From Sphingobacteriaceae bacterium (GTDB lineage Bacteria; Bacteroidota; Bacteroidia; B-17B0; Aurantibacillaceae), in assembly GCA_002319075.1 (NCBI GenBank), contig NVQB01000001.1, positions 3,472,001 through 3,536,000 of the forward strand: a DNA stretch of 64,000 nt. Direction: 5' to 3'. The notes under the pieces are model-generated. The model ran no database searches. It saw only the letters and a list, made by a program, of their open reading frames with translations, and was not told the origin of the DNA. Made by a program: the position numbers and the translations under genes. Within the stretch, counting starts at the first letter, position 1. Every line of letters begins with the position of its first letter. Positions 10,169-31,272 of this stretch are shown one piece after another.

Positions 10169-11254
10169 TCACCGCTTCGTCGTAAACTTCTTTTGGTAAA
10201 TAAAGGGCACACCTAATTCCAGCGTTACATCGGGCTCTGGTTTTTCTTTTACCTGTTTGCGGTAAGTCGAATAATAAATCTTAATCAGGATCACGAAATA
10301 CGAAATCAACAGTGGACCAAAGATCAATCCCGGAATTCCCATGTAATTTAAACCCATGATCACACCCAGAACCGTTATAACAGGATGCACATCGGCCATA
10401 CGTTTGGCAAGTACAAAACGAATGACATTGTCGGCGCTGCCCATAACGATAGCGCTCCAGGCAATAACGCCAACACCCTGCCAGGTTTGTCCTTCTGCGA
10501 ATAAATAAATAGAGATAGGCAACCAGATCAAACCCGTTCCAACAATAGGGATAATAGAAGCAAAACCTGTAAGAATCGCCCAGAACGCAGCTTCCGGCAC
10601 TCCGGCTACCCAATAAGCGACAAAGGCGCTCAGGCCTTGCGCTACCGCAATTAGGGGAATGCCAATAGCATTACTGAAAGTTTGTGCTTTTAATTCGTGG
10701 CCAAAAAGCATAATTTTTCTTTTGTCGAAAGGAAGAAATAAAATAATAGCGGCTTCAATACGATTAAAGCCCACTAATAAAAAGTACAGGAAAAAATACA
10801 TCATGGTGATGGAAGAAAAAACAGAGAGGCCCATGTTTAACGCCTGACTTGCGAGTCCTGCGGCGCGCGATTGAAGCTCTGCAATATTTTTTTCAGAAAG
10901 GATTTCAATATTAAACTTTGTTTGGATAGTTTCTACGTAAGCTTTTACGTTTTCGGGATGAGAGACAAGTGGCGTTGCTTTGTTAATTACGAGACTTGAA
11001 AAAGAAAAGATGGGTACCATGATGATGATAAACGATACAATTACAATAAGAATCGCGGCTCTCCCTTTTTTCCATTTTTTCTTATTTACTAAAAATTCCA
11101 TCCAGGGTTTAAAGAGCACATAAAACATAATTGCACCCAGAAACGCGGTAAAAAATTCGCGCATAGAGAACAGTAATAGCAAAGCGAAAATGATAATCAC
11201 TGATAAAAAAAACGACTTGTTTATTTTAGCTGTATTTAATGTTGTACCCCCCAT
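10169..11254 (-). CDS. AI-2E family transporter (PerM-like membrane protein)
   Basis: A 361-residue inner-membrane protein with about seven or eight hydrophobic segments: two near the N-terminus (FFLSVIIIFALLLLFS and a second around 30-45), one near 62-80, and a C-terminal cluster. The segment AILTGFASIIPIVGTGLIWLP matches the conserved AI-2E/PerM signature, followed by GSADNVIRFVLAKRM and HPVITVLGVIMG. The family name is historic; members export autoinducer-2, ions or other small molecules, and the substrate cannot be told here. It is convergent with the LpxH-like gene; a 134-bp gap without an obvious strong terminator lies between. Confidence 0.93.
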   Translation of the reverse strand: MGGTTLNTAKINKSFFLSVIIIFALLLLFSMREFFTAFLGAIMFYVLFKPWMEFLVNKKKWKKGRAAILIVIVSFIIIMVPIFSFSSLVINKATPLVSHPENVKAYVETIQTKFNIEILSEKNIAELQSRAAGLASQALNMGLSVFSSITMMYFFLYFLLVGFNRIEAAIILFLPFDKRKIMLFGHELKAQTFSNAIGIPLIAVAQGLSAFVAYWVAGVPEAAFWAILTGFASIIPIVGTGLIWLPISIYLFAEGQTWQGVGVIAWSAIVMGSADNVIRFVLAKRMADVHPVITVLGVIMGLNYMGIPGLIFGPLLISYFVILIKIYYSTYRKQVKEKPEPDVTLELGVPFIYQKKFTTKR

Positions 11255-11402
11255 AGTAGTAAAATTTGTTCGGTGTTTTATTTTTAGTAATTTTAATTAA
11301 AATAGTTGATAGACCAGCTTTTTACACACAAACAAATTAAAATTATTTAGTATCAAATGTTGTGCCCGCTATCAAGCAGTTAGCCGCAATGCTTAAACAA
11401 AT

Positions 11403-12047
11403 ATGACGCCTGAGAAAATAGTTATTTTAATGCTTTTAATCGGTTTTTGTAGTTGTTCAGACATTGCAGTCACCTCAACTGTTGAGACGCAGGTTACAGA
11501 AAAAAAGTCGTCTGGATTTAGTATAGAAAACGGACTGAGGCAAGGAATCTTGTATGTGGACTCCACTGGAACCGAATATATATACTATTCTGTTACATCA
11601 ACTATAACGAATGACTCCACAATTCCGATGCATTTTGTGGTAGATTTTGCAAAAGCAACAGACTTAGCTAATGACAGTCTGGGGCCTCGGGTTTTTCTGC
11701 AGCCAAGAAGAGCTCTGACACAAGAGAAACTCCAGACAATTAATAAATCAGCAATTTCCTTAAGCATTTCAAACGACATAAAACACGTTTTGGCCATGGT
11801 TGCACAAACTCCCACTACGCTCGACACACTGCTGAGTTCGAAGGGTAAATGTGTGATGACCTTTGGTTTACTAAACAACACTAAACATGCAGAACCATAT
11901 GCAATTGGTCTGCAAGTATCAGGTAATGGTTCTTCAGCAACAGAGCTGGAACTTAAATTTGATAATATAACCCCCGAGAAACATTATGTGGTACCTTGTG
12001 GGCAAATCAATTTTGAAAACATTGCTGACAACTTGCATAACCGCTAA
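11403..12047 (+). CDS. Hypothetical lipoprotein
   Basis: A 214-residue protein that I do not recognise. The N-terminus (ILMLLIGFCSCSD) is a lipoprotein-type signal with Cys at 16 and 18. The mature part is beta-rich and Ser/Thr-rich (YYSVTSTITNDSTIPMHFVVDFAKA), resembling an extracellular immunoglobulin-like sandwich. It stands alone between the AI-2E transporter (divergent) and the holin-X-like pair. The upstream 148 bp are AT-rich. Confidence 0.65.
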   Translation: MTPEKIVILMLLIGFCSCSDIAVTSTVETQVTEKKSSGFSIENGLRQGILYVDSTGTEYIYYSVTSTITNDSTIPMHFVVDFAKATDLANDSLGPRVFLQPRRALTQEKLQTINKSAISLSISNDIKHVLAMVAQTPTTLDTLLSSKGKCVMTFGLLNNTKHAEPYAIGLQVSGNGSSATELELKFDNITPEKHYVVPCGQINFENIADNLHNR

Positions 12048-12065
12048 TAACGGCTAGTGGCGCCC

Positions 12066-12101
12066 AACTATTGACTATCAACTATAAACTATTGACTATC
12101 A
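12066..12101. repeat. 15-bp direct repeat pair
   Basis: AACTATTGACTATCA occurs at 12066-12080 and again at 12087-12101, separated by ACTATA, just in front of the ATG at 12105. It is low-complexity and may be a slippage product. Whether it affects expression of the holin-like gene is unknown. Confidence 0.7.
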
Positions 12102-12104
12102 CGT

Positions 12105-12485
12105 ATGGAGGAAAAAAAGGAATATTTCGAAGAAACTTACGAATTGTTTACAAACTATGTTGACGACCGCATGCTTCTTTTAAAAATACAGGCAGCAGAA
12201 AAATCCGGTAAATTAATGTCGGCATTTATAACGATGGCAGTTGTGGCATTATTTACCTTTTTCATTTTACTTTTTGTAAGTATTATGGGTGGTTATTATT
12301 TTGCTGAGGTAACCGGAAGTACTTTTTATGGCTTTAGTATTATAGCTGGAATCTATATTTTGTTGCTCCTGATTTTTTTGGTTCTCAACAAACAGGTATT
12401 ATCCCAATACATTATTAATACAGTGATTCGTATTTTCTTTGAACGTTCTAAAGTAGAAACCGATTTAACTAACGAAGATGAATAA
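12105..12485 (+). CDS. Holin-X-like phage holin family membrane protein
   Basis: A 126-residue inner-membrane protein with two long transmembrane helices (about 40-62, AFITMAVVALFTFFILLFVS, and 75-100, FSIIAGIYILLLLIFLVL) between an acidic N-terminal amphipathic region and a basic tail. This is the layout of the putative Actinobacterial Holin-X family (DUF1469-like), which is chromosomal in Bacteroidota and not necessarily phage-derived. The function is unknown; members often sit with small cytoplasmic coiled-coil proteins, as here. The 3' end overlaps the next gene by 8 bp. Confidence 0.75.
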   Translation: MEEKKEYFEETYELFTNYVDDRMLLLKIQAAEKSGKLMSAFITMAVVALFTFFILLFVSIMGGYYFAEVTGSTFYGFSIIAGIYILLLLIFLVLNKQVLSQYIINTVIRIFFERSKVETDLTNEDE

Positions 12486-12741
12486 ACGTCAGGTCATTAT
12501 TACTTCGCTTAGCGAATTGGAAACCGAAGAGAGAAGAGTGCGCCAGCGCATTAAAAAACAGGAAGCTGAGTTAATGTTGCGCGTTAAAAAATTACCTGAA
12601 GAACTCGTGTCGACCGCAGTTGTAAAGGTTGTCTCCGGACTCATTTCAGGTGATACAGCTAAAACTGTTATGGGTTTTATAAAAAAAATAGCAGGCAATC
12701 TCATTTCTAATATTTTCGAAAAGTTTTCTGACGACAAATAA
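12478..12741 (+). CDS. Small helical protein coupled to holin-X-like gene
   Basis: An 87-residue protein beginning MNKRQVIITSLSELE, with a charged coiled-coil at 12-45 (ELETEERRVRQRIKKQEAEL) followed by two amphipathic helices (about 45-80) of the kind seen in short membrane-associating proteins. It overlaps the holin-like gene by 8 bp in another frame, so translation is probably coupled. No family is recognised. It is the last gene before the structured segment that starts near 12755. Confidence 0.65.
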   Translation: MNKRQVIITSLSELETEERRVRQRIKKQEAELMLRVKKLPEELVSTAVVKVVSGLISGDTAKTVMGFIKKIAGNLISNIFEKFSDDK

Positions 12742-12754
12742 CAATTGTTAAGTC

Positions 12755-13075
12755 GAAAGGTGTTCTAATGCTGCGCCACTGACCGCTGCAAGTATACTCG
12801 TGAAGAGTGGACTTAAAGCGCCTGCTCGGTAGGGCAAAAGTCTGATAGACTTTTGAGCCAGATAGTGCGTTAGCTTTGACCCCTGGGAAAAAGACCCCGC
12901 ACAAACTTTTTATGCAGAGCGAAGTCGAGGCATAGGCGCTTTTAGGCCAGGCGAGCGAGATACAGCAGAGGGCAGGACCGCCATGAAGCGAAAGGCATGC
13001 GGAAATATAAAAGATGCCTTTCTGCTTCATGGGGGAGGCGCCCTTAAAATAGCGGGGAAGAAAAGCGTAACTTTT
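12755..13075. other. GC-rich, highly structured non-coding segment
   Basis: Part of a 497-bp gap between genes, visibly richer in G+C than its surroundings. It contains CAAAAGTCT/AGACTTTTG at 12835-12855 (9-bp stem, 3-base loop), a 17-bp stem with one small internal loop formed by 12981-12998 and 13014-13032, ACTC/GAGT near 12796-12808 inside CCACT/AGTGG (12776-12810), and a possible long-range pair AAAGCGCC (12815-12822) with GGCGCTTT (12935-12942). An open frame runs through it on the minus strand but has no recognisable protein features. It could be a structured RNA or a decayed repeat element; neither is proven. Confidence 0.5.
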
Positions 13076-13163
13076 ATCCTTTAGCCCTTATTTCCAACAC
13101 TTTAGAGAGGGCGTTTTCCTTGACATAACGCAAGTTTCAGGCAGACTTAATTTAACTTTAAAA

Positions 13164-13191
13164 TTGACCGAATTAGCCTCTAATTTATTTG
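13164..13191 (+). promoter_or_regulatory. Possible promoter for ilvE
   Basis: TTG at 13164-13166 and TTTATTTG at 13184-13191 resemble the Bacteroidota -33 (TTG) and -7 (TAnnTTTG) elements with a 17-bp spacer; the second base of the -7 box differs from consensus. It lies about 50 bp before the ilvE start. Confidence 0.3.
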
Positions 13192-13238
13192 CCAATTCGA
13201 AAATTATGTAGTTATTTGTTAGATCAACACAAAAAGGT

Positions 13239-14309
13239 ATGACTAGTACTATAGACATTAAAGTAGAAAAGATTAAGAAAAGTCGTGTTTCAGAATACGA
13301 TATAAATAATGTTGCTTTTGGTAAATGTTTCAGCGATCACATGTTCGTTGCTGAATACTCCGATGGCAAGTGGCAGAAAGCAGAAATCACTCCGTACCAG
13401 GATGTGCCGATGAGTTATGCAATGAGTGCGCTCCATTACGGACAGGCAATCTTCGAAGGAATGAAAGCCTACAAAAACGATAAGGGCGAGGTTTCGATGT
13501 TCAGAGCTCCTGATAACTTCAAACGTTTAAATAAAAGTGCTGTACGTATGGCAATGCCTGAAATTCCTGAAGATCTGTTCATGAATGGCTTGATGGAATT
13601 AATTCGTTTAGATTCAGCCTGGGTTCCTTCCAGTGAAACGGGAAGTCTTTACATTCGTCCGTTTTTAATTGCTACGGACGAAGCCATTGGTGTAAAAATC
13701 AGTGACACTTATAAATTTGTGATCATCACGTGCCCTGCCGGTAAATATTACAGCGAGCCAATTAAAGTTTTAGTAGAAACAAATTATTACCGTGCTGTAA
13801 AAGGTGGGGTAGGCTTTGTAAAAGCAGCAGGTAACTACGGAAGAAGTTTGTATCCTACAAAATTGGCGCAACAAAAAGGGTACCAACAGGTAATCTGGAC
13901 CGATAGCGAAACGCAGCAGTATTTTGAAGAAAGCGGAACCATGAACGTGATGTTTGTGATTGGAGATACACTTTTAACGCCGGGCTTGAGCGATACTATT
14001 TTAGATGGTGTTACACGTAGCTCTGTGCTTGCTTTGGCGAGAGACTGGGGTATGAAAGTAGAAGAACGTAAAGTAAGTATTAAAGAGGTTTTTGAAGCTA
14101 TTGAGGCAGGAACCCTGAAAGAAGTTTTCGGTTGTGGTACAGCGGCAACGATTGCGCAAATAATTGGCATCGGTCATAATGGAAAAGATTATGCTCTACC
14201 GCCGGTAGCAGAACGTAAGTTCTCACCACGTGTGGATGATACCTTGCGTGCGATTCGCAAAGGAAAGATGGAAGACAAACACGGATGGATGATGAAGGTG
14301 CCTTCGTAA
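13239..14309 (+). CDS. ilvE: Branched-chain amino acid aminotransferase
   Basis: Fold-type IV PLP enzyme that transfers the amino group between glutamate and branched-chain 2-oxo acids, the last step of Leu/Ile/Val synthesis. Features: SALHYGQAIFEGMKAY near 63-78, Arg-containing SLYIRPFLIATDE, the PLP lysine in GFVKAAGNYG (K195), and the C-terminal GCGTAATIAQI phosphate-binding turn. Length 356 is that of BCAT/IlvE type II enzymes. It stands as a single gene, followed by a clear terminator; no other ilv/leu genes are in the window. Confidence 0.96.
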   Translation: MTSTIDIKVEKIKKSRVSEYDINNVAFGKCFSDHMFVAEYSDGKWQKAEITPYQDVPMSYAMSALHYGQAIFEGMKAYKNDKGEVSMFRAPDNFKRLNKSAVRMAMPEIPEDLFMNGLMELIRLDSAWVPSSETGSLYIRPFLIATDEAIGVKISDTYKFVIITCPAGKYYSEPIKVLVETNYYRAVKGGVGFVKAAGNYGRSLYPTKLAQQKGYQQVIWTDSETQQYFEESGTMNVMFVIGDTLLTPGLSDTILDGVTRSSVLALARDWGMKVEERKVSIKEVFEAIEAGTLKEVFGCGTAATIAQIIGIGHNGKDYALPPVAERKFSPRVDDTLRAIRKGKMEDKHGWMMKVPS

Positions 14310-14328
14310 TCAGGAAATAGATTTATAT

Positions 14329-14360
14329 AAAAACCGGCTTCGAATGAGGCCGGTTTTTTT
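14329..14360 (+). terminator. Rho-independent terminator of ilvE
   Basis: AAACCGGC at 14331-14338 pairs with GCCGGTTT at 14349-14356 around a 10-base loop and is followed by a T run, 22 bp after the ilvE stop. Confidence 0.9.
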
Positions 14361-14369
14361 GTGTCCTTT

Positions 14370-14517
14370 CTCGACTACGCTCGAAATGACAATCGACTAC
14401 GCTCGAAATGACACGGGCTACGCACAAGCTGGCCTTAACATCCACTGGATGTTAATCCTGCTCGAACTGAAAATCGACTAGCCTCGAAATGACAGTGTCA
14501 AATCGAGCGTAGTCGAG
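14370..14517. repeat. MITE-like element with terminal inverted repeats, single 59-bp core
   Basis: A 148-bp non-coding element. The left end CTCGACTACGCTCGAAATGA (14370) is matched in inverse by the right end (TGTCAAATCGAGCGTAGTC, about 14496-14517), two mismatches over about 22 bp. Inside is one copy (14402-14460) of the same 59-bp unit that is tandemly repeated at 22594-22947, including the hairpin AACATCCACTGGATGTT. Extra partial end sequences sit at 14392 and 14473. It lies between convergent ilvE and the anti-sigma-like gene. Confidence 0.8.
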
Positions 14518-14536
14518 ATTGCGTAATATGTATACC

Positions 14537-16930
14537 TCATTTGAAGTTGCTACTATCGCTTTCATCGTAACTACTTTGTCCTGCAGGAGCTGGTTGGACT
14601 GAACAAGGAAAGACAACTGGCCTTAATCTCACTCTAATCTCTTCTCTGTTTTTTATTTTATCTCTTCTTGTATTCTCTTTTTGTTCGAAAAGCTGGTAAT
14701 TAAACTCCTCTAAAATATTTCTGGAAGCCCCGCCATTCATAGAAGAGAAATGCTCTATGTCTTTTTTGGACATCTTTGTTAATTGCAGACTTACTTCACC
14801 TGGCTTTGCTTTTGCTATGCTGTTACTGTAAATGGTCTCGCCTTTAAAACCCATTACAAGTAAACTGTAAGAAAATAATTCATTAAGATTTTCTTTAAAG
14901 TCTGCGTTAACAGTTGCAGGCATTCTTTGAAAGGAACTTAGTTTATCAGGAATAAGATAGGCAAGAATGCGGTCGTAGTCTTCCCTTCCCTGAACTTTTA
15001 CAAGAAGGGGTTCGTAACGAATAACCGCCTTTTTTCCGGATTGAGGATCTGTGTAATCAAGGGTTTCACGTTTACTTGTAGATTCGAAAACATAAACGTC
15101 TACGTTTTTCCATCCGGTGGTTTCAATTCTTGTTTCGAAATATGCCGCCGCCGGAGCTTTAACATAAGGTTTATCTAATTGTCTGTATGCCTCTTTCATA
15201 TTGGTTTCCAACTCTTCCATAAAAACATTGTTTATGCGTTTAACTTCTGATATATTATGGGTAGTTCTTTCTTCAAGTGCACGTTGATCTTCGATTTTTT
15301 CTTTTTTATAAAGTGATTGTAGAGTCTCACGCGCAGTTTTTTCGTACAGCGTTCTCTTTTCTTCCATATAAGCATGGAGTTTTTTTAGCTCGCTGGTTTT
15401 CATGGAAACGCCGCCTTGCCTTTTGTTATAGAACTCACGAAAGGTTTCTCCGCCTTCACCGAGCATCACCATGGCAAGGCTGTCAATCTCCCACATCCGT
15501 TTGTCCATATTTTTAACATAGAGGTCTAATACACTCGCGTTGCAGGTTTTAAAAATTGCTTTTAGTCGCGCTTCAAATTCTTTTGTTGCCAATAATGTTT
15601 TATTAAATTTTTTATTCCAGATGGCGCGAATACGGGACGGGGCGATTTCGCAGCCAGAGCTTACGGAATTTTGAACAGATTCTGCAACAGAGCCTCCAAT
15701 ATATTGAATGAGCGCAGATATATCGTTATCTGTTAAAGTCCCTTCAAATACAGTCATGGCTGTTTTCCCATTTTCCAAATAAATTTTATTAGCATAAGGA
15801 TCACCGCTCTTAATCATCTTTTCACTATTCATGATGTATTTTTTTAACCACTCGCCTTTTGGAATTCTTTCCATTATGCCTTCCAAACCCGGACCGGTGA
15901 GTTTTTGTTTTGTAAGGGAATGACAGACTGCGCAATTTTGTCTGAATATTTTTTCCGGATCCGGTTTTCGCACTGTGTCAGATCTTACTGTGTATTTTCC
16001 GTAGTCGTCTTCATTTTCATTAAAAGAAGCAGCATCCAATTCGCTGGAAAAGCACGCAAAAGAATAATAAACACTATCCGTAATTTTTTTATCGCTAATA
16101 TCAAATCCCATGCTTTGCAAAGAGTCTAAAAAGTGTGGCGGATAAAAATCGAGGCTCATAATGTCCATTGTAGTCAAAGCACTTTCCATGGGTTTAGGAT
16201 CTATCCAATTGATCTGGCCATCCGCCATCCGCTTGCCATCAAACAACATCATCTTTTTCCCATTAGTATTATCGGGAACGCTGGCATAGATGTTTTTGTT
16301 TGCAGGAATAATTAAATTTTTTCCATCCTTTCTTGCGTTGATATAAAACATACCTCCAGTCTCCAATAGTTTTCCCTCACTAGTTGTGGAGAGTCCTGCC
16401 TTCATTATGTCCAGTGGAGTCAGTGCTTCTTTTATTTCCAGTTCATAATCTTCAGTAACTTCATTACCCGTACTATTTATAAAAGCCCTGGCAGGAATTT
16501 GAAAAACCATGCCGCCTTTGGTCTCAATTATAGTATCGCTGTTTCCTCTGAGAATAAAGACTTGCGGACTAATTTGTTCATCCGCTTCTGACCAGTTCTT
16601 GTTATTTTGTTCATTCAGTTCATAACGGATATTTCTGTTTTCGGCAAATATTTTATTTATTACCACCATCACCGTTGCAACGGCCAGTGCTGTTATAGCC
16701 AAACCCAACATCCACTTGCCAGCTTTGGTTTTGAACGATCCTTTTTTAAATCCTTTGTTAATTTCAGATCTTAATCCCGCGTTTTCAATTCCACGCATAA
16801 CCTGCCTTTGCAGCTCAAATTCTTTTTTTAATTCAGCGTTTGTTTCTAATTGTTTTTCAAAGTCTGCTTTTTCAGCTTCATTTAGTTCACCATTGAGGTA
16901 GTTTTCTATGAGTTGTGTATACTTATTCAT
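14537..16930 (-). CDS. Transmembrane anti-sigma-like protein with periplasmic cytochrome c domain
   Basis: A 797-residue membrane protein. Residues 1-70 are a cytoplasmic, charged helical segment (NKYTQLIENYLNGELNEAE) like the N-terminus of anti-sigma factors, without the zinc HxxxCxxC motif. One transmembrane helix spans about 73-92 (MLGLAITALAVATVMVVI). Residues about 125-240 resemble the beta-rich ZU5-like domain common in Bacteroidota surface proteins (GGMVFQIPARAF, LLETGGMFYINA). Residues about 322-415 are a class I cytochrome c domain: CAVCH (C333, C336, H337), TGPGLEG, a candidate Met ligand M392 in KTAMTVFEG, and a C-terminal helix DNDISALIQYI. The remainder (430-797) is unassigned, with a coiled-coil near 515-590. 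It overlaps the sigma gene by 8 bp, which supports a sigma/anti-sigma pair. A role in redox or heme sensing is inference. Confidence 0.8.
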   Translation of the reverse strand: MNKYTQLIENYLNGELNEAEKADFEKQLETNAELKKEFELQRQVMRGIENAGLRSEINKGFKKGSFKTKAGKWMLGLAITALAVATVMVVINKIFAENRNIRYELNEQNNKNWSEADEQISPQVFILRGNSDTIIETKGGMVFQIPARAFINSTGNEVTEDYELEIKEALTPLDIMKAGLSTTSEGKLLETGGMFYINARKDGKNLIIPANKNIYASVPDNTNGKKMMLFDGKRMADGQINWIDPKPMESALTTMDIMSLDFYPPHFLDSLQSMGFDISDKKITDSVYYSFACFSSELDAASFNENEDDYGKYTVRSDTVRKPDPEKIFRQNCAVCHSLTKQKLTGPGLEGIMERIPKGEWLKKYIMNSEKMIKSGDPYANKIYLENGKTAMTVFEGTLTDNDISALIQYIGGSVAESVQNSVSSGCEIAPSRIRAIWNKKFNKTLLATKEFEARLKAIFKTCNASVLDLYVKNMDKRMWEIDSLAMVMLGEGGETFREFYNKRQGGVSMKTSELKKLHAYMEEKRTLYEKTARETLQSLYKKEKIEDQRALEERTTHNISEVKRINNVFMEELETNMKEAYRQLDKPYVKAPAAAYFETRIETTGWKNVDVYVFESTSKRETLDYTDPQSGKKAVIRYEPLLVKVQGREDYDRILAYLIPDKLSSFQRMPATVNADFKENLNELFSYSLLVMGFKGETIYSNSIAKAKPGEVSLQLTKMSKKDIEHFSSMNGGASRNILEEFNYQLFEQKENTRRDKIKNREEIRVRLRPVVFPCSVQPAPAGQSSYDESDSSNFK

Positions 16931-17480
16931 GACCGGAAGTTTTTAAGATTTGTAAATTTTCTTTCGCTTTTTCAATGCACCTGTACTTTTGATTTTTAGC
17001 CACTTTTTCTGAACCAAAGTTCAGCTTCGCGGCAATGTCTCTCATGGACATTTTTTTAAAGTAAAAGAGCAAAAGCAATTGCTTACATTTTTCTCCCAGC
17101 TGGTGGAAAGCTTTTTCCGCCAGTGTATTTTCCGATTCTGTTTTGTAAAGGGTTTCTAAGTGATGTTCGGCAGATGCTTGCTGAGTTGTTTCTAAATCAA
17201 CTTCTATCCGCTTGCTTTGCTTTTTAAGGCGCTCGCTCCACAAAAAGCGACAAATGCTGTACAAATAAGTAGTCAGACTACTTGTCAAAACAAAGTCGGG
17301 TGTTTTTAGTTTCCGGATCAGGATAATAAGTGCCTCCTGGTATATATCTTCTGCATCTTGTCTGCTACCGCTGTTTTTTAAGACGAATTTTTTTATAACA
17401 GGGAAGTAGCCGTAGAGCTTTTCGCTGACCTTAGCGTAGTGATTGCCTTGTAGCAATTCAATTATCTGGCTGTCTTTCAT
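16923..17480 (-). CDS. RNA polymerase sigma-70 family (ECF-type) factor
   Basis: A 185-residue sigma factor that would direct RNA polymerase to a dedicated promoter set. Region 2 is visible at about 20-95 (DAEDIYQEALIILIRKLK, then SLTTYLYSICRFLWSERLKK) and region 4 at about 125-180, with the helix-turn-helix MSMRDIAAKLNFGSEKVAKNQ. There is no region 1 or 3, as in ECF factors. It is the first gene of the pair and its stop overlaps the start of the membrane protein at 16930, the usual arrangement for a sigma factor held by its cognate anti-sigma. Target genes are unknown. Confidence 0.9.
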   Translation of the reverse strand: MKDSQIIELLQGNHYAKVSEKLYGYFPVIKKFVLKNSGSRQDAEDIYQEALIILIRKLKTPDFVLTSSLTTYLYSICRFLWSERLKKQSKRIEVDLETTQQASAEHHLETLYKTESENTLAEKAFHQLGEKCKQLLLLFYFKKMSMRDIAAKLNFGSEKVAKNQKYRCIEKAKENLQILKTSGHE

Positions 17481-17675
17481 TAATGTGTTTTTATATTAAT
17501 GGAGCTTTTCGCAAAAGGTCATCAAAAGAAATTGTAAAAAATGTATTAAGTCACGTAAGATAGTTAAAATCAATAAAATAGATTTAAATAAGGGTTACGT
17601 AAGCGATTTTTAAAATCATGTTTAATTAAATGAAACTGTCATTTTATAATCAAACGCCACTCCGCCTGATTTAAT

Positions 17676-17738
17676 AAGTCATTTCGAGTAGGATCAATAT
17701 CCGGTGAATGTTGAGGCTAGCTTGTGTATAGCCGGGAA
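17676..17738 (-). repeat. Diverged, inverted copy of the 59-bp repeat unit
   Basis: Read on the minus strand, this stretch follows the 59-bp unit of 22594-22947 base by base with about ten differences: CCCGGCTATACACAAGCTAG, then CTCAACATTCACCGGATATT, then GATCCTACTCGAAATGACT. It is isolated, without clear terminal inverted repeats, and lies between the sigma factor gene and the small membrane protein at 17772. Confidence 0.65.
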
Positions 17739-17771
17739 ATTTGTAAATTTAATAAACTCAATTTTGCAAAC

Positions 17772-17936
17772 ATGAAATCGAAAACGGGCTTTCTTATTGT
17801 TTTACTGGTACTTAACTGCATCGTTCTACTCGGTCAGCTTTGGCCCGAAGGGGCACCTCCTTTTGCACGAACGGTCAATATTATTTTCCTTATTTTAAGT
17901 TTAATCTTTTTTATTAGTTTACTTCGCAAAAAATAA
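17772..17936 (+). CDS. Small hydrophobic membrane protein
   Basis: A 54-residue protein beginning MKSKTGFLIVLLVLN with two predicted transmembrane helices (about 6-22 and 34-51) and a basic end LLRKK. A longer reading from a GTG at 17724 is possible but its first codons fall in a decayed repeat copy, so the ATG at 17772 is preferred. No family is recognised. Only 4 bp separate it from the lipoprotein at 17941, so the two are probably cotranscribed. Confidence 0.55.
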   Translation: MKSKTGFLIVLLVLNCIVLLGQLWPEGAPPFARTVNIIFLILSLIFFISLLRKK

Positions 17937-17940
17937 TTGT

Positions 17941-18324
17941 ATGAAAAAAATTATTTCTGTCTTAATTTCTCTTGCTGCGTTTTTTTTAATTGCCTGCAGC
18001 GGTTCTGATACTTACCTGGGTAAGTGGAAAGCCACTAACGCGAATGGTGATAAATTCGATCTTGAATTCAGTGCCAAAAAGTTTAGCGTAAAAGATAGCA
18101 GCGGACAAATAAAAAAGTACGAATACAAACAGCATTCTATCCACATTGATAATTCTATAAAAACTTACGGCATTAAATTAGAAGATGGCAGAGCTTATGA
18201 CATTCATTTTCCGAAAGAGAACGATGATAACATTGCTCTTATACGGGATGAGCAGGGTCAGCCTTTGTATACTCTGTCACGCAAGGACTATATAAAGTAT
18301 GAATCTGTTTATAAATTAGAGTAA
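17941..18324 (+). CDS. Hypothetical lipoprotein
   Basis: A 127-residue protein with lipoprotein signal (FFLIAC, Cys19). The mature part starts GSDTYLGKWKATNANGD, which resembles small lipocalin-like or copper-resistance-type beta barrels seen in many Bacteroidota lipoproteins, where a GxW motif opens the barrel. The function is not known. It is part of a short same-strand run of small secreted proteins (17772-18792). Confidence 0.65.
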   Translation: MKKIISVLISLAAFFLIACSGSDTYLGKWKATNANGDKFDLEFSAKKFSVKDSSGQIKKYEYKQHSIHIDNSIKTYGIKLEDGRAYDIHFPKENDDNIALIRDEQGQPLYTLSRKDYIKYESVYKLE

Positions 18325-18351
18325 TTAGTAGGGTGTTTGGCATAAGCGAAG

Positions 18352-18792
18352 ATGAAAAACCTGTTTAAGATAAGTTTCGTTTGCCTTACGCAATTCTTTG
18401 CTTCATGTTTTACTACTCAGGAAGAGCACCAGTTAACAACGCAGGAAGCACTCCGATACTTAGATTCTACGCAACTAAATTATGTACTCGCGGGTTATAA
18501 AGATACTGAGGGTTATTCTTTCCTAAGTCGGAAACACTTATCAGATACAATTGCCGTGAAGCTTTTTTGCAACCCTGGTTTTCCTGATATTACAGATACA
18601 CTCGTAGAAATACAATCAGGAATTTTTAAGTCTATTCGCAACCGCACACTTTACCAAATCCAAGCCAATGAAGTCACGGTAACCTATTTTCAAAAAATCA
18701 TTCACCCTTCTTCGAACTGGCAAGGACAAACGCCCTGGCAGGAAATTAATATAATAAAGTATCGGCGGATCGATAAAAATTTGAGGCCTTAG
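18352..18792 (+). CDS. Hypothetical lipoprotein
   Basis: A 146-residue protein with a probable lipoprotein signal (LTQFFASC, Cys19). I do not recognise the mature sequence; it is beta-rich with a YKDTEGYSFLSRKHL segment. It lies 27 bp after the lipoprotein at 17941 and 4 bp before the Nudix gene, so transcription is likely shared. Confidence 0.6.
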   Translation: MKNLFKISFVCLTQFFASCFTTQEEHQLTTQEALRYLDSTQLNYVLAGYKDTEGYSFLSRKHLSDTIAVKLFCNPGFPDITDTLVEIQSGIFKSIRNRTLYQIQANEVTVTYFQKIIHPSSNWQGQTPWQEINIIKYRRIDKNLRP

Positions 18793-18796
18793 AACT

Positions 18797-19375
18797 ATGA
18801 AAAGTAAAATGAAACTTCAGAAAACAGAAATCCTTTCTTCTGATAAATACCTTCTTAAAAAAATAACTTACGACTATTTGCGAAATGATGGTAAAAGCCA
18901 GGTGCAGAGCCGGGAAGTTTATGATCGTGGGAATGCTGCTACGATATTACTGTACAACAAAGAGAAAAAGTCAGTGATTCTCACAAGACAATTTCGTCTC
19001 CCTACTTTTTTAAATGGTAACGAAAACGGAATGCTCATTGAAGCATGTGCCGGCATGTTGGATAAAGATAGTCCGGAAGAGGCCATAAAACGTGAGGCAG
19101 AAGAAGAAACAGGCTATAAGATCACAGAAGTTAGAAAGGTCTTTGAGGCATACACTTCGCCCGGCTCTTTAACAGAATTGCTTTATTTTTTTATTGCTGA
19201 ATATTCAAAGGACCTGAAAGTGGCCGAAGGCGGAGGATTGGAAGAAGAACATGAAGAGATTGAGGTTTTAGAATTGGATATAGAAAAAAGCATGCAAATG
19301 ATAGAAAGTGGCGAAATTAAGGATGCCAAAACGATTATGCTGCTGCTGTATATCAGGTTGCATAAGATTTTATAG
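18797..19375 (+). CDS. nudK: Nudix hydrolase, NudK (GDP-mannose pyrophosphatase)-like
   Basis: Cytoplasmic Nudix enzyme that hydrolyses a nucleoside diphosphate sugar; the NudK branch prefers GDP-mannose. The Nudix box runs from AGMLDKDSPEEAIKREAEEE (residues 85-104) to TGY, with the ACAG lead-in and the longer spacing typical of NudK. Other features are TRQFRLPTF (63-71) and the late acidic stretch GGLEEEHEEIEV. Length 192 fits. Two nearby Met codons could serve as start; the first is used. ADP-ribose as substrate cannot be excluded. Confidence 0.8.
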   Translation: MKSKMKLQKTEILSSDKYLLKKITYDYLRNDGKSQVQSREVYDRGNAATILLYNKEKKSVILTRQFRLPTFLNGNENGMLIEACAGMLDKDSPEEAIKREAEEETGYKITEVRKVFEAYTSPGSLTELLYFFIAEYSKDLKVAEGGGLEEEHEEIEVLELDIEKSMQMIESGEIKDAKTIMLLLYIRLHKIL

Positions 19376-19481
19376 ATGCTGTTGACTGGGCATAAGGTTT
19401 TGAGTTACATCCGCACTTGCAGGCTATTTAACTGGCACCACATTTGCAAAGTATGACTGCACCGCAATAGGGAAAGAGCAA

Positions 19482-20024
19482 ATGGGAAAAGTAATTTTAG
19501 ACATGTCTATGTCATTGGACGGTTTTATCGGCAATCAGAAGCAAAAGTACATTTACCCCATTGAGGAAATTAAGAAAACACCCCAATTAAAGCAACTCAT
19601 AAAAAATGCAGGAGCTGTAATTATGGATATAGAGGCCTATGACCTTTCTGAGGGCGATTTTACAGACTATGAATACCAGGTTCCTGTTTTCGTTATCTGC
19701 AAAAAGGCACCTGCCAAAACTACAAAAGGAACAAACGAAAATTTAAAGTTTCATTTCATTACTACGGGCATTGAGAGCGCCGTTGAAAAAGCAAAAACTG
19801 CGGCTAAGTCTAAGAATGTTATGGTAATTGGTCTGGCTGAAGCGGCGCAGGAGTCGTTAAAGGCGCAGAAAATTGATGAATTAATTATCCGTATTATCCC
19901 AGTTCTCTTGGGAAAGGGTGTTCGTCTTTTTGAAAATTTGGGTAAAGAGGCTATCCCTCTAAAAATCCTGAATTCCGAAAAATACCTTGCGCATACCGAC
20001 ATTACTTTTAAAATTCAAAAGTAA
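19482..20024 (+). CDS. Dihydrofolate reductase-like (RibD C-terminal family) protein
   Basis: A 180-residue protein of the DHFR/RibD reductase fold. The N-terminal strand-loop MGKVILDMSMSLDGFIGN is the family hallmark, and the C-terminal IRIIPVLLGKGVRLFENLG is the conserved RibD_C end. Members are uncharacterised NAD(P)H-dependent reductases in most bacteria; the substrate is unknown. It starts a run with the DinB-like protein (30 bp downstream). Confidence 0.88.
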   Translation: MGKVILDMSMSLDGFIGNQKQKYIYPIEEIKKTPQLKQLIKNAGAVIMDIEAYDLSEGDFTDYEYQVPVFVICKKAPAKTTKGTNENLKFHFITTGIESAVEKAKTAAKSKNVMVIGLAEAAQESLKAQKIDELIIRIIPVLLGKGVRLFENLGKEAIPLKILNSEKYLAHTDITFKIQK

Positions 20025-20054
20025 GTTACTGGAAATTATTTTTTATTTTGTAGC

Positions 20055-20534
20055 ATGGATAAGATTTCAAACTATGCAAGGCAGCACTACGAATTTGTAA
20101 AAGATTCGCGGAGTGTTCTTCTGAACTATTGCCAGACAATTCGGGGGGAAGATTTTACAAGAGAAAACTCAGCATTTGGTCGCGGTGGCAGCATGCGAAA
20201 TTTGCTGGTGCATATCACCAATGTTTATGAATATTGGGTTGCAGAAGTCGGGTTGAATAAGAGTGTTAAGTTCTCGGACTGTGCATCCTTTGAAACACCT
20301 GACGATATAAATGAACTATTCGTTACTGTAAATAGTTATATGGATGAACTTATCGTTAAATTAGAAGATCCCGATTTCCTGGTAACCTATGTATTACATG
20401 ATGATAAAAAACACGTAACGCTTTTTAAACTTTTTAGTCACGTTATAAGCCACGAGTATCATCACAAGGGTCAGATTTTATCTATCAGTCGCCAGTTAGG
20501 TTACACACCGGTAGATACTGATATGATCCGATAG
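20055..20534 (+). CDS. DinB-like four-helix-bundle protein
   Basis: A 159-residue cytoplasmic protein with the DinB/YfiT fold: four long helices and the metal-binding His pattern, LLVHITNVYEYW in helix 2 (near residue 53) and SHEYHHKGQI in helix 4 (near 137-142). Members often bind Ni/Zn and act in thiol-transfer or stress responses, but the specific reaction is unknown. It may be cotranscribed with the DHFR-like gene before it. Confidence 0.85.
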   Translation: MDKISNYARQHYEFVKDSRSVLLNYCQTIRGEDFTRENSAFGRGGSMRNLLVHITNVYEYWVAEVGLNKSVKFSDCASFETPDDINELFVTVNSYMDELIVKLEDPDFLVTYVLHDDKKHVTLFKLFSHVISHEYHHKGQILSISRQLGYTPVDTDMIR

Positions 20535-20573
20535 AGCTGAGTTGACTTCGGGATTTATCTTTATATTCGTGCA

Positions 20574-22568
20574 GTGAAGTTCCTGAAAGAACATAGTTTA
20601 TTTCTCTGCATTCTTTTTGTCTGCGCGGTTTTAAGGTTTATTCCTTTGTTCGACTACCAGTTTACCTACGACGAATTAAGCGGACTCGAACGCACGCAGT
20701 TTTCATCTTTTTCGGAAGTGATTGAAAAAGGGGTAAAGATTGATGCGCATCCTGCCCTTGTACAATTGCTTATTTATTACCTCACACAAATTTTCGGATA
20801 CACTACCTGGATCATCAAACTCCCCTTTTTGCTTTTTGGATTTGCTGCCATCATTTATGCTTATGCATTTGGACTACGCAACTTTTCAAAGCAAGCAGGA
20901 TTATTTGCAGCTCTGATTTTTAGTTTTTCTTTAATTTTTGTTTTTTACGCGCCTATCGCCAGGATGTATGTCTCCGGTGTTTTTTTTAGCATCGCGCTTC
21001 TGTATTATTTTTTCGAAATATTTTTTTCTGAAAATCTTAAGAAGTCAAATTATTTTTTCCTGGCACTATTCGCTTATCTCTCAGCATTAAATCAACACAT
21101 CAATGCTTTATTTGCAACGACTGTTTTTCTTTCAGCTCTTTTCTTTCTCACAAAAGAGAATTACAAAGCTTTTATTATAACTTGTATATGCGTTGTTTTA
21201 GCTTATTTGCCGGCCTTACCTGTTACCCTTTACCAGTTGGGAATTGGAGGAATAGGAGTAGATGCAGGAGGTTGGCTGGAGACTCCTGAGTTTACCATTG
21301 TATTTTCGTTCTTAAAAACGCTTCTTGGAACTGGACGATTGTATTTGATTTTTTTCTTTTTAATCGCATTAGCTTTTATGCTTCAAAAAAAGGTCAGTAT
21401 TTCTAAAAAGCAAATTTTCCTGTTGCTGCTTTTTGTCATTAATTTTCTTGTGGTCTATTTATATTCTGCCTGGCGTTCTCCTATTTTTCAGTATTCTGTA
21501 ATGTTGTTTTCCGGAACGGCTTTTATCTTTTTTGTTTGTTCTTTTCTTGAATTCAAAACTACTTTCGTTTTTTATGGTGGATTTTGTTTGTTGGCTTTCG
21601 GCCTGATCTACAAGACCTATGTAAAAAAGGACTATCTCGGTGAGTGTGTGAAAACGGTTTTTGACTATCAATTTGAAAGAACGTGCTACTATAAAAGTCT
21701 TTACGGAGAAAAAAACGTCTACCCCGTTTTCTTTGATGCGGATGAAATTATGAAAAAGATTTATTTCAATAAATACAAAACCAATTTTGAGTGTAAAGTA
21801 TCGGCTGATTCTATGATCTCAAATAGGAGTTCAGTAATGTTTAAGCAAAAAACACGGTCGGAAAAAAATGAAGAAGCGGCCGAACAAACAGTTTCGTCCA
21901 TGCGTTTATTTTCTGAATTTGTGAATAAGATCGATGTCGACTATCTTATTCTAACGTCCGCTATGCCACAATTTCAGGCGGTGGTACTCGAAAAATTCCC
22001 TTACCTGCTTGAGAATACACAAACGCAGGGTATTAATTTCAAACTCTACTCCCGAAAGCCGGAAGATAGATCGAAAGTTGTTGCAGACGACGCTGTTTAT
22101 TATTTTTCATCGCCCTTAAAAGCGGGGAATTTTACTTACTCTAAACTATCTGGTAACACAACAAAAGTTTTTCCATTACGAGTTGATTCGCTTAACGAAT
22201 TTCCTTTTGATGCAAAGGCCGCGCTTGCTTCTGTCACAGCCAAAGAAGGGCAGGTTGTTCTTATATCTGCAAAATTAAAAATGAAAAGCAGGTATAGTCC
22301 TTTGGAAGTTTGTATTTCTGCAACAGACTCTGAAACCAACAAGCAATACGTTTACAGCGCCAGAGCGGCTTCAGATTTTGTGATGAACGCAGATTCGACT
22401 ATCATGATATATTCAGAACAATTTAACGGCGTGCATTACAATCAATTTAAATACAAAGCAAATTTAACGGCTTATATATGGAATCGCGGTAAAGAGAACT
22501 TTACGCTTCAGAATTTCGAAATTAAAGTAATTGATTACTGGCACCGGAAGTGGGAACTTTGGGAGTAG
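20574..22568 (+). CDS. GT-C type glycosyltransferase, ArnT/PMT (GT39)-like membrane protein
   Basis: A 664-residue polytopic inner-membrane protein that probably transfers a sugar from a lipid-linked donor to a surface molecule. The start is GTG at 20574. Residues 1-350 hold about ten transmembrane helices. The first periplasmic loop has the acidic pair of GT-C enzymes (TYDELSGLERT, near residue 33), followed by KIDAHPALVQLL and ARMYVSG, typical of the RgtA/B/C/D-like group. The C-terminal 310 residues are soluble and include a beta-rich region. Acceptor and sugar are unknown. Confidence 0.82.
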   Translation: MKFLKEHSLFLCILFVCAVLRFIPLFDYQFTYDELSGLERTQFSSFSEVIEKGVKIDAHPALVQLLIYYLTQIFGYTTWIIKLPFLLFGFAAIIYAYAFGLRNFSKQAGLFAALIFSFSLIFVFYAPIARMYVSGVFFSIALLYYFFEIFFSENLKKSNYFFLALFAYLSALNQHINALFATTVFLSALFFLTKENYKAFIITCICVVLAYLPALPVTLYQLGIGGIGVDAGGWLETPEFTIVFSFLKTLLGTGRLYLIFFFLIALAFMLQKKVSISKKQIFLLLLFVINFLVVYLYSAWRSPIFQYSVMLFSGTAFIFFVCSFLEFKTTFVFYGGFCLLAFGLIYKTYVKKDYLGECVKTVFDYQFERTCYYKSLYGEKNVYPVFFDADEIMKKIYFNKYKTNFECKVSADSMISNRSSVMFKQKTRSEKNEEAAEQTVSSMRLFSEFVNKIDVDYLILTSAMPQFQAVVLEKFPYLLENTQTQGINFKLYSRKPEDRSKVVADDAVYYFSSPLKAGNFTYSKLSGNTTKVFPLRVDSLNEFPFDAKAALASVTAKEGQVVLISAKLKMKSRYSPLEVCISATDSETNKQYVYSARAASDFVMNADSTIMIYSEQFNGVHYNQFKYKANLTAYIWNRGKENFTLQNFEIKVIDYWHRKWELWE

Positions 22569-28989: not shown

Positions 28990-31272
28990 TTAGTCAAGGA
29001 AGATCTTAAATGTCCGATAGCTCTCAGATATTAAGCGCCCATTACCGCTATAAACTTTAACGAAATAAATACCTTTTGGCCAGGCTTCGGTCTTTATTTC
29101 TGTGGATTTTTCTGTGAGCGTTTTAGTGTAAACGATTTGTCCTAAGGAATTTAAAATCTCTATTTTCTGATTTAGATTTTCCTGGTCAATATAGAAACTG
29201 CCCTGCGATGGATTTGGATAAATTTTAATTTCTGAATCCGTCATTTTATTTTCAATGCCTGTGGCTATTGCACAGTCCTCTATTTCTATCAGGAGGGTAG
29301 TGTCTTCGGGACACTTGTTAGATTTTTTTGCAGTTACCGTATAAATAGTTGCGGTAGTTGGACTCACCACTACCATGCTGCCTGTTAAGGCGCCTGGATT
29401 AAAAGTATAGCTCGTTGCTCCGCTGGCTTTAAGCGTAACAGATTGTCCAGAACAAATCAAACTATCGGAAGCTGTAAGGGTGATGTCAAAATCTATAACC
29501 GTAACCTGCACTCCAACTTGTTTGTTGCAGGAGTTTACTCTACCGGTAACGATGTAGGTATCTGTGGATACAGGGGTGTAGATAACACTATTCGTATTAA
29601 AATTTCCGGGATTCATGGTATAAGCATTAGCGCCATTTGCGGTAAGGGTTACAGACTCTCCTGCACAAATTGTAGTAGCGGAAGCAGCTAACGATAGAGT
29701 GAAATTTGGACTAACCGTTACCTGTATGACAGCAGATGCGCTACAACTTCCGTTCGCTCCAATTACCGTGTAATTTGTACTGGCGAAAGGTGTAATGGTT
29801 TGTAAACTTCCTCCGAAGGCACCTGGGAGCCAGGTGTAAGAAGCAGCGCCACTTGCAGTTAAAGAGGTGCTTCTACCCGGACACAAGATGTTCGTAAAAT
29901 TGCTAACCGTTAGCGTAGGTGTGTTGCCAACAGTTAAAGTCATGGTAGTTTCGCAGCTTGTAGAAGTACTGCTGTTCGCTAAAAGACTAATGGTGTAATT
30001 TCCGGCGCTGAAGGTATGGTTGGGGTTTTGAATACTGTAAGTTCCTGCTGATGGTCCGCTTACAATCCATTGCCACTGAGTGGGAACGCCGTTTGTGCTG
30101 TAGGTGAGGGGCAGTGTTTGTCCCGCACAGATCTGTGGATTTAACGTTATTGTGTTTGCTATCTGCGGCGGATTGGTTGCTTTTATGCTCACATAATATT
30201 TACCAAGGCTTCCGTAATCAGAATAATAATTCGAGCGACCGCCATCCACTGTAAAATAATAAGTTCCGGGTGTAAGCGTTAAACCTCTGAGGGTGTTAAG
30301 TTTTGTAAGGGCTGTATCTACCGCCAATACACTAGTAGTTGTGGCATTGTATAAAAAGAAGCGCACATCGAGGTCAGCTCCCAGATAACTGTTGGTATCA
30401 AGCGCCCAGGGTTTAACGCCGATGGTTACATAACGGTTGTCGCAAATGGTAAATTGGTAAGCGTCTATATCCGTAGGCTGCGTAATAATTCCAGAGTCTA
30501 AAAGATTTATATTGGTTAAATTCAAAATCTTCGCGGTGCCCAAAGTATTTCCTACATCATCGGGAATAAAATTCAAATAACCCGGACTCGTAATGCCAAT
30601 GCCCGAATTGCCATGGTCGTTTTGAATGGTACTACAACTTGTCGCGCTTTTGCCGTTGTGCCAGATGGTAATATTTTTAGAATAACCCACACCCATAATG
30701 GGAGCCCAGGAAGTGATACCGCTGCCCGTACCCGGATGGTATTCTGTTTTCACACAATTGGAAGTATAAGAACTTTGGTGACGCAGTGTTAAGGTATGTC
30801 CCACTTCATGCGCGGCAGCCTCTGCCATGTTTTTCACACTGTAACCCAATTGATTTTCAAAAACCCAGCAGGGAGTTCCGGGTGTGCCGCCCCAGACAAA
30901 ACTTCCTAAAAATGCTACTCCTCCCGCAGAGCCGTACCAGGCACTGGTTGGTGTAAACACAACGCGAATTCTCGTATTGGGTGTTGCTGCATTGAATCTC
31001 AGGGAGTCTGTTGTAACGTTTACATCAAAAGGTCTGTAGTCTTCGGCAATTCTTTGAAAGATGGTTGTGATTTCGGCTGCGCTTTTTGTAGAGGGCATGG
31101 CATTCACCGCTTGCCCACCATTCCAGGCCGTACCACTAACTACCTGCCCGTCAAAATCAAGGTAAATAACTTTCCTGGTAGTGGCAGGCTGACTGTTGAG
31201 TATTGGAATTTGTCCATAACATAATTGACATAGTACAATAAAAAGACCCAGAAGTTTTAGTTTTGATAACAT
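28990..31272 (-). CDS. Secreted metzincin-type zinc metalloprotease with T9SS sorting domain
   Basis: A 760-residue secreted protease. Signal peptide 1-20; catalytic domain to about 230 with zinc motif HEVGHTLTLRH (H155, E156, H159, H165), the HExxHxxxxxH pattern of metzincins. Residues about 255-370 resemble a pre-peptidase C-terminal (PPC-like) domain (TPGTYYFTVDG). Three Ig-like/PKD-type repeats follow (each with ICAGQ/LCPGR/ICSGQ and a SYTFNPG-type strand). The last about 80 residues are a type IX sorting domain (IKIYPNPSQGSFYI to GIYFVKV). Exported by Sec then T9SS; substrate unknown. Confidence 0.9.
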   Translation of the reverse strand: MLSKLKLLGLFIVLCQLCYGQIPILNSQPATTRKVIYLDFDGQVVSGTAWNGGQAVNAMPSTKSAAEITTIFQRIAEDYRPFDVNVTTDSLRFNAATPNTRIRVVFTPTSAWYGSAGGVAFLGSFVWGGTPGTPCWVFENQLGYSVKNMAEAAAHEVGHTLTLRHQSSYTSNCVKTEYHPGTGSGITSWAPIMGVGYSKNITIWHNGKSATSCSTIQNDHGNSGIGITSPGYLNFIPDDVGNTLGTAKILNLTNINLLDSGIITQPTDIDAYQFTICDNRYVTIGVKPWALDTNSYLGADLDVRFFLYNATTTSVLAVDTALTKLNTLRGLTLTPGTYYFTVDGGRSNYYSDYGSLGKYYVSIKATNPPQIANTITLNPQICAGQTLPLTYSTNGVPTQWQWIVSGPSAGTYSIQNPNHTFSAGNYTISLLANSSTSTSCETTMTLTVGNTPTLTVSNFTNILCPGRSTSLTASGAASYTWLPGAFGGSLQTITPFASTNYTVIGANGSCSASAVIQVTVSPNFTLSLAASATTICAGESVTLTANGANAYTMNPGNFNTNSVIYTPVSTDTYIVTGRVNSCNKQVGVQVTVIDFDITLTASDSLICSGQSVTLKASGATSYTFNPGALTGSMVVVSPTTATIYTVTAKKSNKCPEDTTLLIEIEDCAIATGIENKMTDSEIKIYPNPSQGSFYIDQENLNQKIEILNSLGQIVYTKTLTEKSTEIKTEAWPKGIYFVKVYSGNGRLISESYRTFKIFLD

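Follow-up and report, generated by a model that had tools for sequence, protein, structure and literature searches.

A sigma factor paired with a membrane anti-sigma-like protein that carries a predicted periplasmic, ActA-like cytochrome c domain in an exchangeable slot

Membrane anti-sigma factors of class I, such as RseA, RskA and RsiW, are encoded next to their sigma factor genes and combine an N-terminal class I anti-sigma domain (ASDI), formed by a three-helix bundle plus a fourth helix, with one membrane helix and a periplasmic sensor part (PMC7406223). A locus resembling these systems is found in a Sphingobacteriaceae bacterium (assembly GCA_002319075.1, whole genome 5.65 Mb), within a stretch of 64,000 nucleotides that covers bases 3472001-3536000 of contig NVQB01000001.1 and is referred to as the window. 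It consists of a gene for an extracytoplasmic function (ECF) sigma factor of 185 residues and a second gene for a 797-residue membrane protein with a predicted periplasmic cytochrome c domain. The adjacent sigma gene, the four-helix N-terminal domain (here predicted, at low confidence beyond residue 50), the single membrane helix and the periplasmic part are common to both, whereas the window protein matches anti-sigma profiles only below threshold and has a swappable slot for apparently captured domains, in this case a heme-c domain; the word "cytochrome" is absent from the main text of PMC7406223. Formal membership of class I, resting on adjacency and predicted helices in place of a profile match, is likely, and we infer a mode of action like that of a membrane anti-sigma factor.

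The N-terminal heme domain of ActA from Flavobacterium johnsoniae (6BTM) is mobile and membrane-anchored, and has been proposed as the electron carrier from alternative complex III (ACIII) to cytochrome aa3 (PMC8552683). The corresponding mono-heme domain of the ActA encoded in the window's own genome is 69% identical to the slot domain; unlike ActA, the slot protein contains one CxxCH rather than six hemes, lacks the five-heme part and is fused to an anti-sigma frame, and there are no act-like genes around the pair (window 11000-22000), which lies outside the act operon. Known sigma/anti-sigma pairs of the Bacteroidota likewise have domains on both sides of the inner membrane, and some members of the present family end in a TonB_C or type IX sorting domain; the available text describes no cytochrome or captured-module slot for the known pairs, and the window protein itself has no C-terminal Pfam domain. 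Control of a sigma factor by the state of the respiratory chain is known from the RsfSR/SigF two-component system of Mycobacterium smegmatis, which uses a histidine kinase, a phosphatase and partner switching, with no heme domain built into the anti-sigma factor as far as described (PMC10950880). Extracytoplasmic c-type heme sensors derived from acquired cytochrome sequence are also known, namely the sCache_heme sensors, in which a short heme-binding fragment sits in a Cache fold where the window protein has a whole cytochrome domain (PMC12889525); neither "sigma factor" nor "anti-sigma" occurs in the main text of that article. In the literature covered, from which subscription journals were mostly missing so that absence is not proven, no anti-sigma factor with a cytochrome c domain or a captured-module slot was found. 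An analogy, and only that, comes from plant immunity, where nucleotide-binding leucine-rich repeat (NLR) receptors carry integrated decoys, copies of host protein domains at a fixed place that were gained many times. The reading preferred here, at a probability of about 0.55, is that, through a captured ActA-type shuttle domain, the anti-sigma factor monitors the traffic of respiratory electrons; pairing with the sigma factor and the origin of the module are well supported by the sequence comparisons below.

Conservation of the sigma/membrane protein pair

The 185-residue product matches Sigma70_r2 of Pfam (E=5.4e-9) and the sigma70-ECF superfamily model of NCBIfam (2.2e-19, above cut-off), and its open reading frame (ORF) shares 8 bp with that of the 797-residue protein, at exactly the coordinates given in the initial annotation, which had proposed that the two form a sigma/anti-sigma pair. 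Homologues were gathered by whole-protein and profile searches together with a scan for two patterns that sit within the ZU5 domain, outside both the N-terminal tail and the cytochrome; the scan led to Bacteroidota metagenome-assembled genomes, with many Bacteroidia and Flavobacteriales. A full-length or partial homologue is present in 13 of 87 genomes of the same family, in which most of 79 matches represent the ActA-type cytochrome domain alone and one genome (G002) contains a further homologue without cytochrome. Across the class, 36 of 395 genomes yield a match at E<=1e-40 (at most two candidates scored per genome), frequencies that argue against a chance finding.

Seventy-four sources were scanned (four repeat loci left out) and removal of six duplicates gave 69 distinct ZU5-domain ORFs, in each of which we recorded whether the N-terminal tail was present and whether a same-strand sigma gene lay upstream (between -200 and +700 bp). 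Tail and sigma gene occur together in 55, are both missing from 13 and disagree in one, such that a sigma gene lies just upstream of 55/55 tail-bearing ORFs, while 13 of the 14 tail-less ones lack it. Three of the latter 13 are cut by contig ends and the other ten have at least 1383 bases upstream, while in the discordant case (L095) the frame is broken and the tail is encoded in a separate 57-residue frame 94 bp after the sigma gene. Distances between the sigma gene and the ORF range from -61 to 126 bp in 54 of the 55 (625 bp in the remaining one). The tail-less forms are lipoprotein-like, as judged by eye, or membrane-anchored with the cytochrome retained (L064, L117, L118). Sigma and tail distances, the tail being taken together with the membrane helix, remain correlated after ZU5 distance is removed (partial correlation 0.36, 52 pairs; 0/1000 permutations as high). 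The sigma/anti-sigma pairing is strongly supported by these comparisons, and for the tail as the putative sigma-binding part the co-occurrence is stronger evidence than the distance correlation.

Upstream of the sigma gene is a promoter-like motif, TGACCTTTT-N11-CATTAAT, and the window site is the sole perfect match in the genome. Scores of at least 14/16 were obtained in 26 of 51 sigma upstream regions against 0/1020 shuffles, and of at least 12/16 in 45 of 51 against 88/1020; the shuffles keep single-base content only, spacers of 9-13 were permitted, four regions were dropped because the sigma gene was cut, and the consensus was drawn from 23 of the same, mutually related loci, so the counts are not independent. 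The best sites have an 11-nt spacer in 44 of 51 regions and lie 10-24 nt from the start in 48, the distant ones being those of L074 (86 nt), L089 and L119 (48 nt). The sigma/anti-sigma family thus very likely regulates itself, as judged from this conserved motif. Agreement of tail and sigma gene in 68 of 69 ORFs, the motif and the residual correlation all argue for the pairing first suggested from the overlap, and the gene order is kept across genomes.

Variant arrangements also occur. One relative has a split version (L090 5983-9435), in which the sigma gene comes within a few bases after the gene for a tail-less ectodomain and the tail is part of a separate 329-residue protein encoded next. 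In another (L100 8660-10206), the first pair is flanked by an oppositely oriented second sigma gene and tail-bearing 306-residue protein that have a motif of their own. Broken-frame homologues, which are possible pseudogenes or assembly errors, were detected at L095, L098 and L120.

The exchangeable slot and its ActA-like cytochrome

The cytochrome occupies a position, after the ZU5 domain and ahead of the conserved C-terminal core, at which modules change among relatives (the slot). It had been recognized initially as a class I cytochrome c from CAVCH (C333-H337) and M392 (Table 1), an assignment now upheld by a Pfam Cytochrom_C match to residues 327-411 (E=1.8e-8, above cut-off) and by the cytochrome c fold in the AlphaFold2 (AF2) model (VIA Z 11.8 to 3cp5 over 92 residues, 2.8 Å). 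CxxCH is present in 27/27 slot cytochromes found by profile, tail-less ones included, and a Met near the Met392 position in 24 of the 25 that are not truncated; two genes in the genome match Cytochrom_C_asm (cytochrome c assembly). The slots of the 55 tail-bearing ORFs contain a cytochrome c in 22 cases, a linker of fewer than 80 residues in 23 and another insert in eight, the remaining two having a cytochrome further downstream and a truncation, respectively. A rapidly built tree of the frame, from which the slot was omitted (60 rows), requires the cytochrome state to change 10 times, with at least eight changes forced by well-supported branches. Comparison of the relatives thus shows a slot of fixed position that can take different modules, of which the cytochrome is one. 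A cytochrome c at another place in the frame (residues 431-521) was detected in one relative (L086 5977-7704) and groups with L074 and its ActA in trees.

When eight relatives were searched, the closest cytochrome outside the family was ActA-like, with six CxxCH, in seven; no ActA was found at that threshold in the genome of L069. Searched against 6btm_A, the ActA chain of alternative complex III, a protein from the same genus scores E=1.9e-94, and four ActA-like proteins from other lineages score 1.2e-91 to 1.5e-58. In the window's genome, the genes after actA (L198 7816-9096) correspond in order, and some of them also in Pfam matches, to ActB through ActF, with an oxidase subunit (by eye) after them. 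In the tree, slot domains are interspersed with ActA domains, and a single slot clade is rejected (log-likelihood difference 221; approximately unbiased test, p=8.9e-45) in a comparison that used 20 of 25 slot rows (five long-branch rows left out) and 14 of 30 ActA rows and excluded the 11 other cytochromes. In eight genomes with both a slot cytochrome and an ActA, identity of the slot to its own ActA was compared with that to the best other ActA or slot among them. The own ActA is nearer in six: the window (69% vs 38%), L077 (55 vs 40), L075 (66 vs 60), L078 (61 vs 58), L071 (67 vs 60) and L074 (53 vs 38). In most lineages examined the slot cytochrome is specifically like the mobile domain of ActA, a likeness that reflects either repeated gain or homogenization through conversion.

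The window slot and actA of the same genome are identical at 76, 88 and 38% of first, second and third codon positions, with 64 of 90 amino acids the same; by this measure the slot is an old copy kept ActA-like by protein-level selection. Recent gene conversion with actA in this genome was considered and rejected, third positions being just 38% identical. The simplest reading of the sequences is that envelope proteins of the same cell have supplied the copies with which the slot was refilled, with conversion after one older capture as the alternative to repeated capture. The slots of L067 and L115 contain a PpiC rotamase (Pfam, above cut-off), which, among the candidates compared, is 44% and 52% identical, respectively, to a PpiD-like protein of the own genome against 32% and 30% to that of the other; own-genome candidates for L067 were just the ORFs found with the L115 query, and PpiD-like here denotes proteins with SurA_N and rotamase domains. 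Weak DsbD-N-like inserts, both below the Pfam cut-off, were detected in L121 (E=0.0086) and L100 (E=0.072), that of L121 matching the N-terminal part of its own genome's DsbD at 36-39%; the label DsbD-alpha for L085, L095 and L116 was given by eye only, and weak carboxypeptidase-regulatory-like inserts (CarboxypepD_reg, below cut-off) occur in L073 and L084.

Respiratory electron traffic as a signal, and its rivals

In the proposed mechanism, the ECF sigma factor would be held at the inner membrane by the four-helix tail of the 797-residue protein, the ectodomain of which would constitute a conserved frame, probably held together by disulfides, in which a ZU5 fold precedes a helical and beta core and the slot lies between these two halves. 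In this lineage the slot would hold a heme-c domain related to the mobile N-terminal ActA domain and, because the copy has stayed ActA-like, this domain most likely shares ActA's partners, to which it would dock or with which it would exchange electrons. The redox or docking state of the cytochrome would alter the frame, directly or via an exposed protease site, freeing the sigma factor to transcribe its own operon from TGACCTTTT-N11-CATTAAT. Control of sigma release by heme redox state or heme supply had been suggested in the initial annotation as a possibility. Whereas the sequences themselves show the conserved pairing, the motif, the slot and the resemblance of the module to ActA, we infer sigma binding, promoter activity, the disulfides, the loading of heme, docking to respiratory-chain partners and signal-driven release of the sigma factor. 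More tentative, and less likely than not, is a wider proposal, in which Bacteroidota would have a class of anti-sigma factors whose sensing depends on self-copying: the fixed slot would repeatedly have been filled by domains duplicated from envelope machines of the same cell (the shuttle heme domain of ActA, a PpiD-like rotamase, a DsbD alpha-like domain), each copy competing for or sampling that machine's partners and thereby coupling its traffic directly to transcription; here the anti-sigma factor would be a third partner in the ACIII-aa3 electron shuttle. If the proposed sensing is real, a transcription switch has several times recruited the electron-carrying domain of a respiratory complex as its sensor, Bacteroidota possess a direct route from respiratory electron traffic to gene expression, and copying a domain of the watched machine into a ready-made anti-sigma frame represents a general way to build sensors. 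The slot domain would also be a natural probe for the docking place of the ActA mobile domain, which is not known according to PMC8552683.

Several results weigh against the reading that the captured domain reports electron traffic, some of them concerning the module and others the pairing. The slot of 23 of the 55 tail-bearing relatives consists of a short linker alone, and the anti-sigma frame therefore works without any module. The slot cytochrome of L071 has no ligand Met, and two slots of L069 (L069 2-2482 and 5971-8310) fall among other, non-ActA cytochromes, which suggests that the slot may draw on more than one cytochrome source. The own ActA is not the closest relative of the L119 slot (44 vs 46%) and ties for that of L072 (66 vs 66%), while the window slot is also 66% identical to the same-genus ActA of another genome, so its capture need not date to this genome. 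Within the tail, the model is unsure beyond residue 50. The comparison with anti-sigma profiles that the initial annotation had advised did return a match, to zf-HC2, but at E=0.16, below the Pfam cut-off; a search of the tail profile against the PDB similarly gave a weak match, 3hug_B at E=0.53 (3hug is the RslA complex). The raw sigma-tail correlation (0.64) is lower than that between sigma and ZU5 (0.71), and is near the 0.5-0.6 reported for negative controls as opposed to 0.82 for true sigma/anti-sigma pairs (PMC7406223), though the measures differ.

Searches for a regulon, in the window's own genome and in relatives, revealed none beyond the pair's own operon, which also tells against the preferred reading, as does the lack of a motif within two mismatches at the act operon of the own genome. 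A regulon in the own genome was rejected, 18 sites at up to two mismatches comparing with 24 in the reversed control and no excess remaining beyond the perfect own site. In 12 relatives, 17 sites were found at up to one mismatch. Each of the six perfect sites stands before the pair's own sigma gene. Among the 11 imperfect sites, three more are likewise found ahead of sigma genes (L157, L170, L156), and the eight left compare with 11 in the reversed control, so that a regulon was rejected here also. One of these sigma genes (L156, in G054 contig 166) is a second same-family gene, by eye, with the same motif, and some genomes have two pairs. In seven genomes of another clade, the clade's own form of the motif gave eight sites at up to three mismatches against 0 in controls, five of them the pairs' own promoters. 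A sixth lies 30 nt before a gene for a 490-residue protein, lipoprotein-like by eye, with a ZU5-like domain (L223 1501-3032; profile E=3e-20), a possible second target of the sigma factor and a lead only; the two remaining sites are not convincing. Neither conserved downstream neighbours nor a target operon emerged: 38 of the 55 tail-bearing loci had a downstream ORF within the sequence covered, the largest cluster comprised seven from one clade, all on the opposite strand, and neither of the first two genes downstream in the window is common to its clade.

Four other explanations were considered. The slot module could be a maturation sentinel, the receipt of heme and the folding of its own cytochrome reporting heme supply or cytochrome c assembly in place of electron flow, with rotamase and DsbD-type domains reporting other envelope folding elsewhere. 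Some slot modules do resemble envelope folding or redox proteins (the PpiD-like rotamases; DsbD for L121), and CxxCH is kept without exception, yet a sentinel would not need closeness to ActA, and the window slot has remained 69% identical to its own ActA while third codon positions are saturated; this explanation is judged unlikely, albeit the strongest of the four. Somewhat less probable still is an electron-transfer or scaffold protein whose amount the sigma factor holds constant, in a pair that regulates only itself, with the cytochrome as the working part and not a sensor. The only perfect motif in the genome being the pair's own, the unconserved downstream genes of the window's clade and the tail-less forms with cytochrome (L064, L117, L118) would all fit; many relatives, however, retain tail and sigma gene while the module differs or is absent, suggesting that sigma pairing is the constant function.

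Two further explanations appear highly improbable, both to a similar degree. The cytochrome could sense a gas or peroxide (NO, CO, H2O2) rather than respiratory redox state, as c-type heme NO sensors do exist in Cache domains (PMC12889525), but the Met retained at the ligand position in 24 of 25 untruncated slots and the ActA-like, i.e., electron carrier, nature of the domain argue otherwise. The membrane protein could alternatively be a mere neighbour co-transcribed with the sigma gene, which would account for the weak match of its tail to known anti-sigma profiles and for a raw sigma-tail correlation not above that of sigma and ZU5. Such a neighbour would hardly be expected to have a sigma gene upstream of every tail-bearing ORF and of none in 13 of 14 tail-less ones, at gaps that, with the one exception of 625 bp, stay between -61 and 126 bp.

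Architecture of the frame and neighbouring sequence

The AF2 model of the 797-residue protein (mean predicted local distance difference test score 81.7, predicted template modelling score 0.59) begins with four short helices and the membrane helix, continues through a beta-sandwich and the cytochrome, and ends in a long C-terminal part of helices and beta structure (Table 1). The tail helices are predicted at residues 5-12, 18-30, 32-50 and 54-69. The single membrane helix after a short N-terminus that had been proposed initially is reproduced by the model, and its inside flank is basic, with a net charge of +6 in residues 50-74 and -1 in 97-115.

Table 1. Features of the sigma/membrane protein locus, with positions in the window
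Feature	Position	Strand	Basis
ECF sigma factor gene, 185 aa	16923..17480	minus	ORF; Pfam and NCBIfam matches
797-aa membrane anti-sigma-like protein with predicted periplasmic cytochrome c	14537..16930	minus	ORF, Pfam, AF2 model
Slot (residues 322-415) with class I cytochrome c domain resembling the ActA mono-heme domain	15686..15967	minus	Pfam, model, trees, identities
CAVCH heme-binding motif, residues 333-337	15920..15934	minus	Sequence
Met392, predicted axial ligand	15755..15757	minus	Sequence; Met kept in relatives
N-terminal cytoplasmic tail, residues 1-69, four predicted helices, anti-sigma-domain-like	16724..16930	minus	Model; co-occurs with sigma gene
Membrane helix, about residues 74-97	16640..16711	minus	Model and charge pattern
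ZU5/GAIN-fold domain, about residues 112-254	16169..16597	minus	Model, structure comparison, alignment
Conserved C-terminal core, residues 429-780, with Cys463 and Cys776	14591..15646	minus	Alignment, model
Promoter-like motif TGACCTTTT-N11-CATTAAT, 14 nt before sigma start codon	17495..17521	minus	Conserved upstream motif; perfect match

The ZU5-like region has no Pfam match at E<1, but when residues 100-296 were modelled alone the top nine VIA entries were GAIN, ZU5 or FIIND structures, with modest Z scores of 4.6-6.2 and root-mean-square deviations of 3.3-4.2; the early assignment as ZU5-like is in keeping with this ranking. Autopeptidases of the ZU5 superfamily have a C-terminal CxH autoproteolytic motif (PMC3482391). 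Autoproteolysis was rejected for the present domain: no His or Cys is found among the invariant or nearly invariant columns of a 34-sequence ZU5 alignment, and the catalytic motif is absent.

Residues 430-797 likewise lack a Pfam match at E<1, and the fold of this part was only weakly tested by structure comparison. The initial annotation had regarded about 370 unassigned residues as suggesting further inputs, which need not be so: they constitute the conserved C-terminal core, and this occurs irrespective of the cytochrome. The protein has six cysteines, all of them on the outer side of the membrane: the CxxCH pair, one on either side of the slot (Cys293 and Cys427), and Cys463 and Cys776, at whose positions 31 and 32 of 40 aligned sequences have a Cys. 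In the same alignment, TonB_C ends are found in six sequences (L072, L076, L092, L099, L103, L119) and a C-terminal type IX secretion signal in one (L075, 884-963), which suggests outer-membrane contact for these relatives.

Rfam yielded no match within the window at the gathering threshold. Short intergenic repeats of the type CTCGAAATGACA, noticed by eye, flank the locus at window 14367-14520 and near 17684. Elsewhere in the window, at 28990-31272, 37276-39339 and 61563-63437, are three genes for secreted proteins with type IX secretion sorting domains (Pfam).

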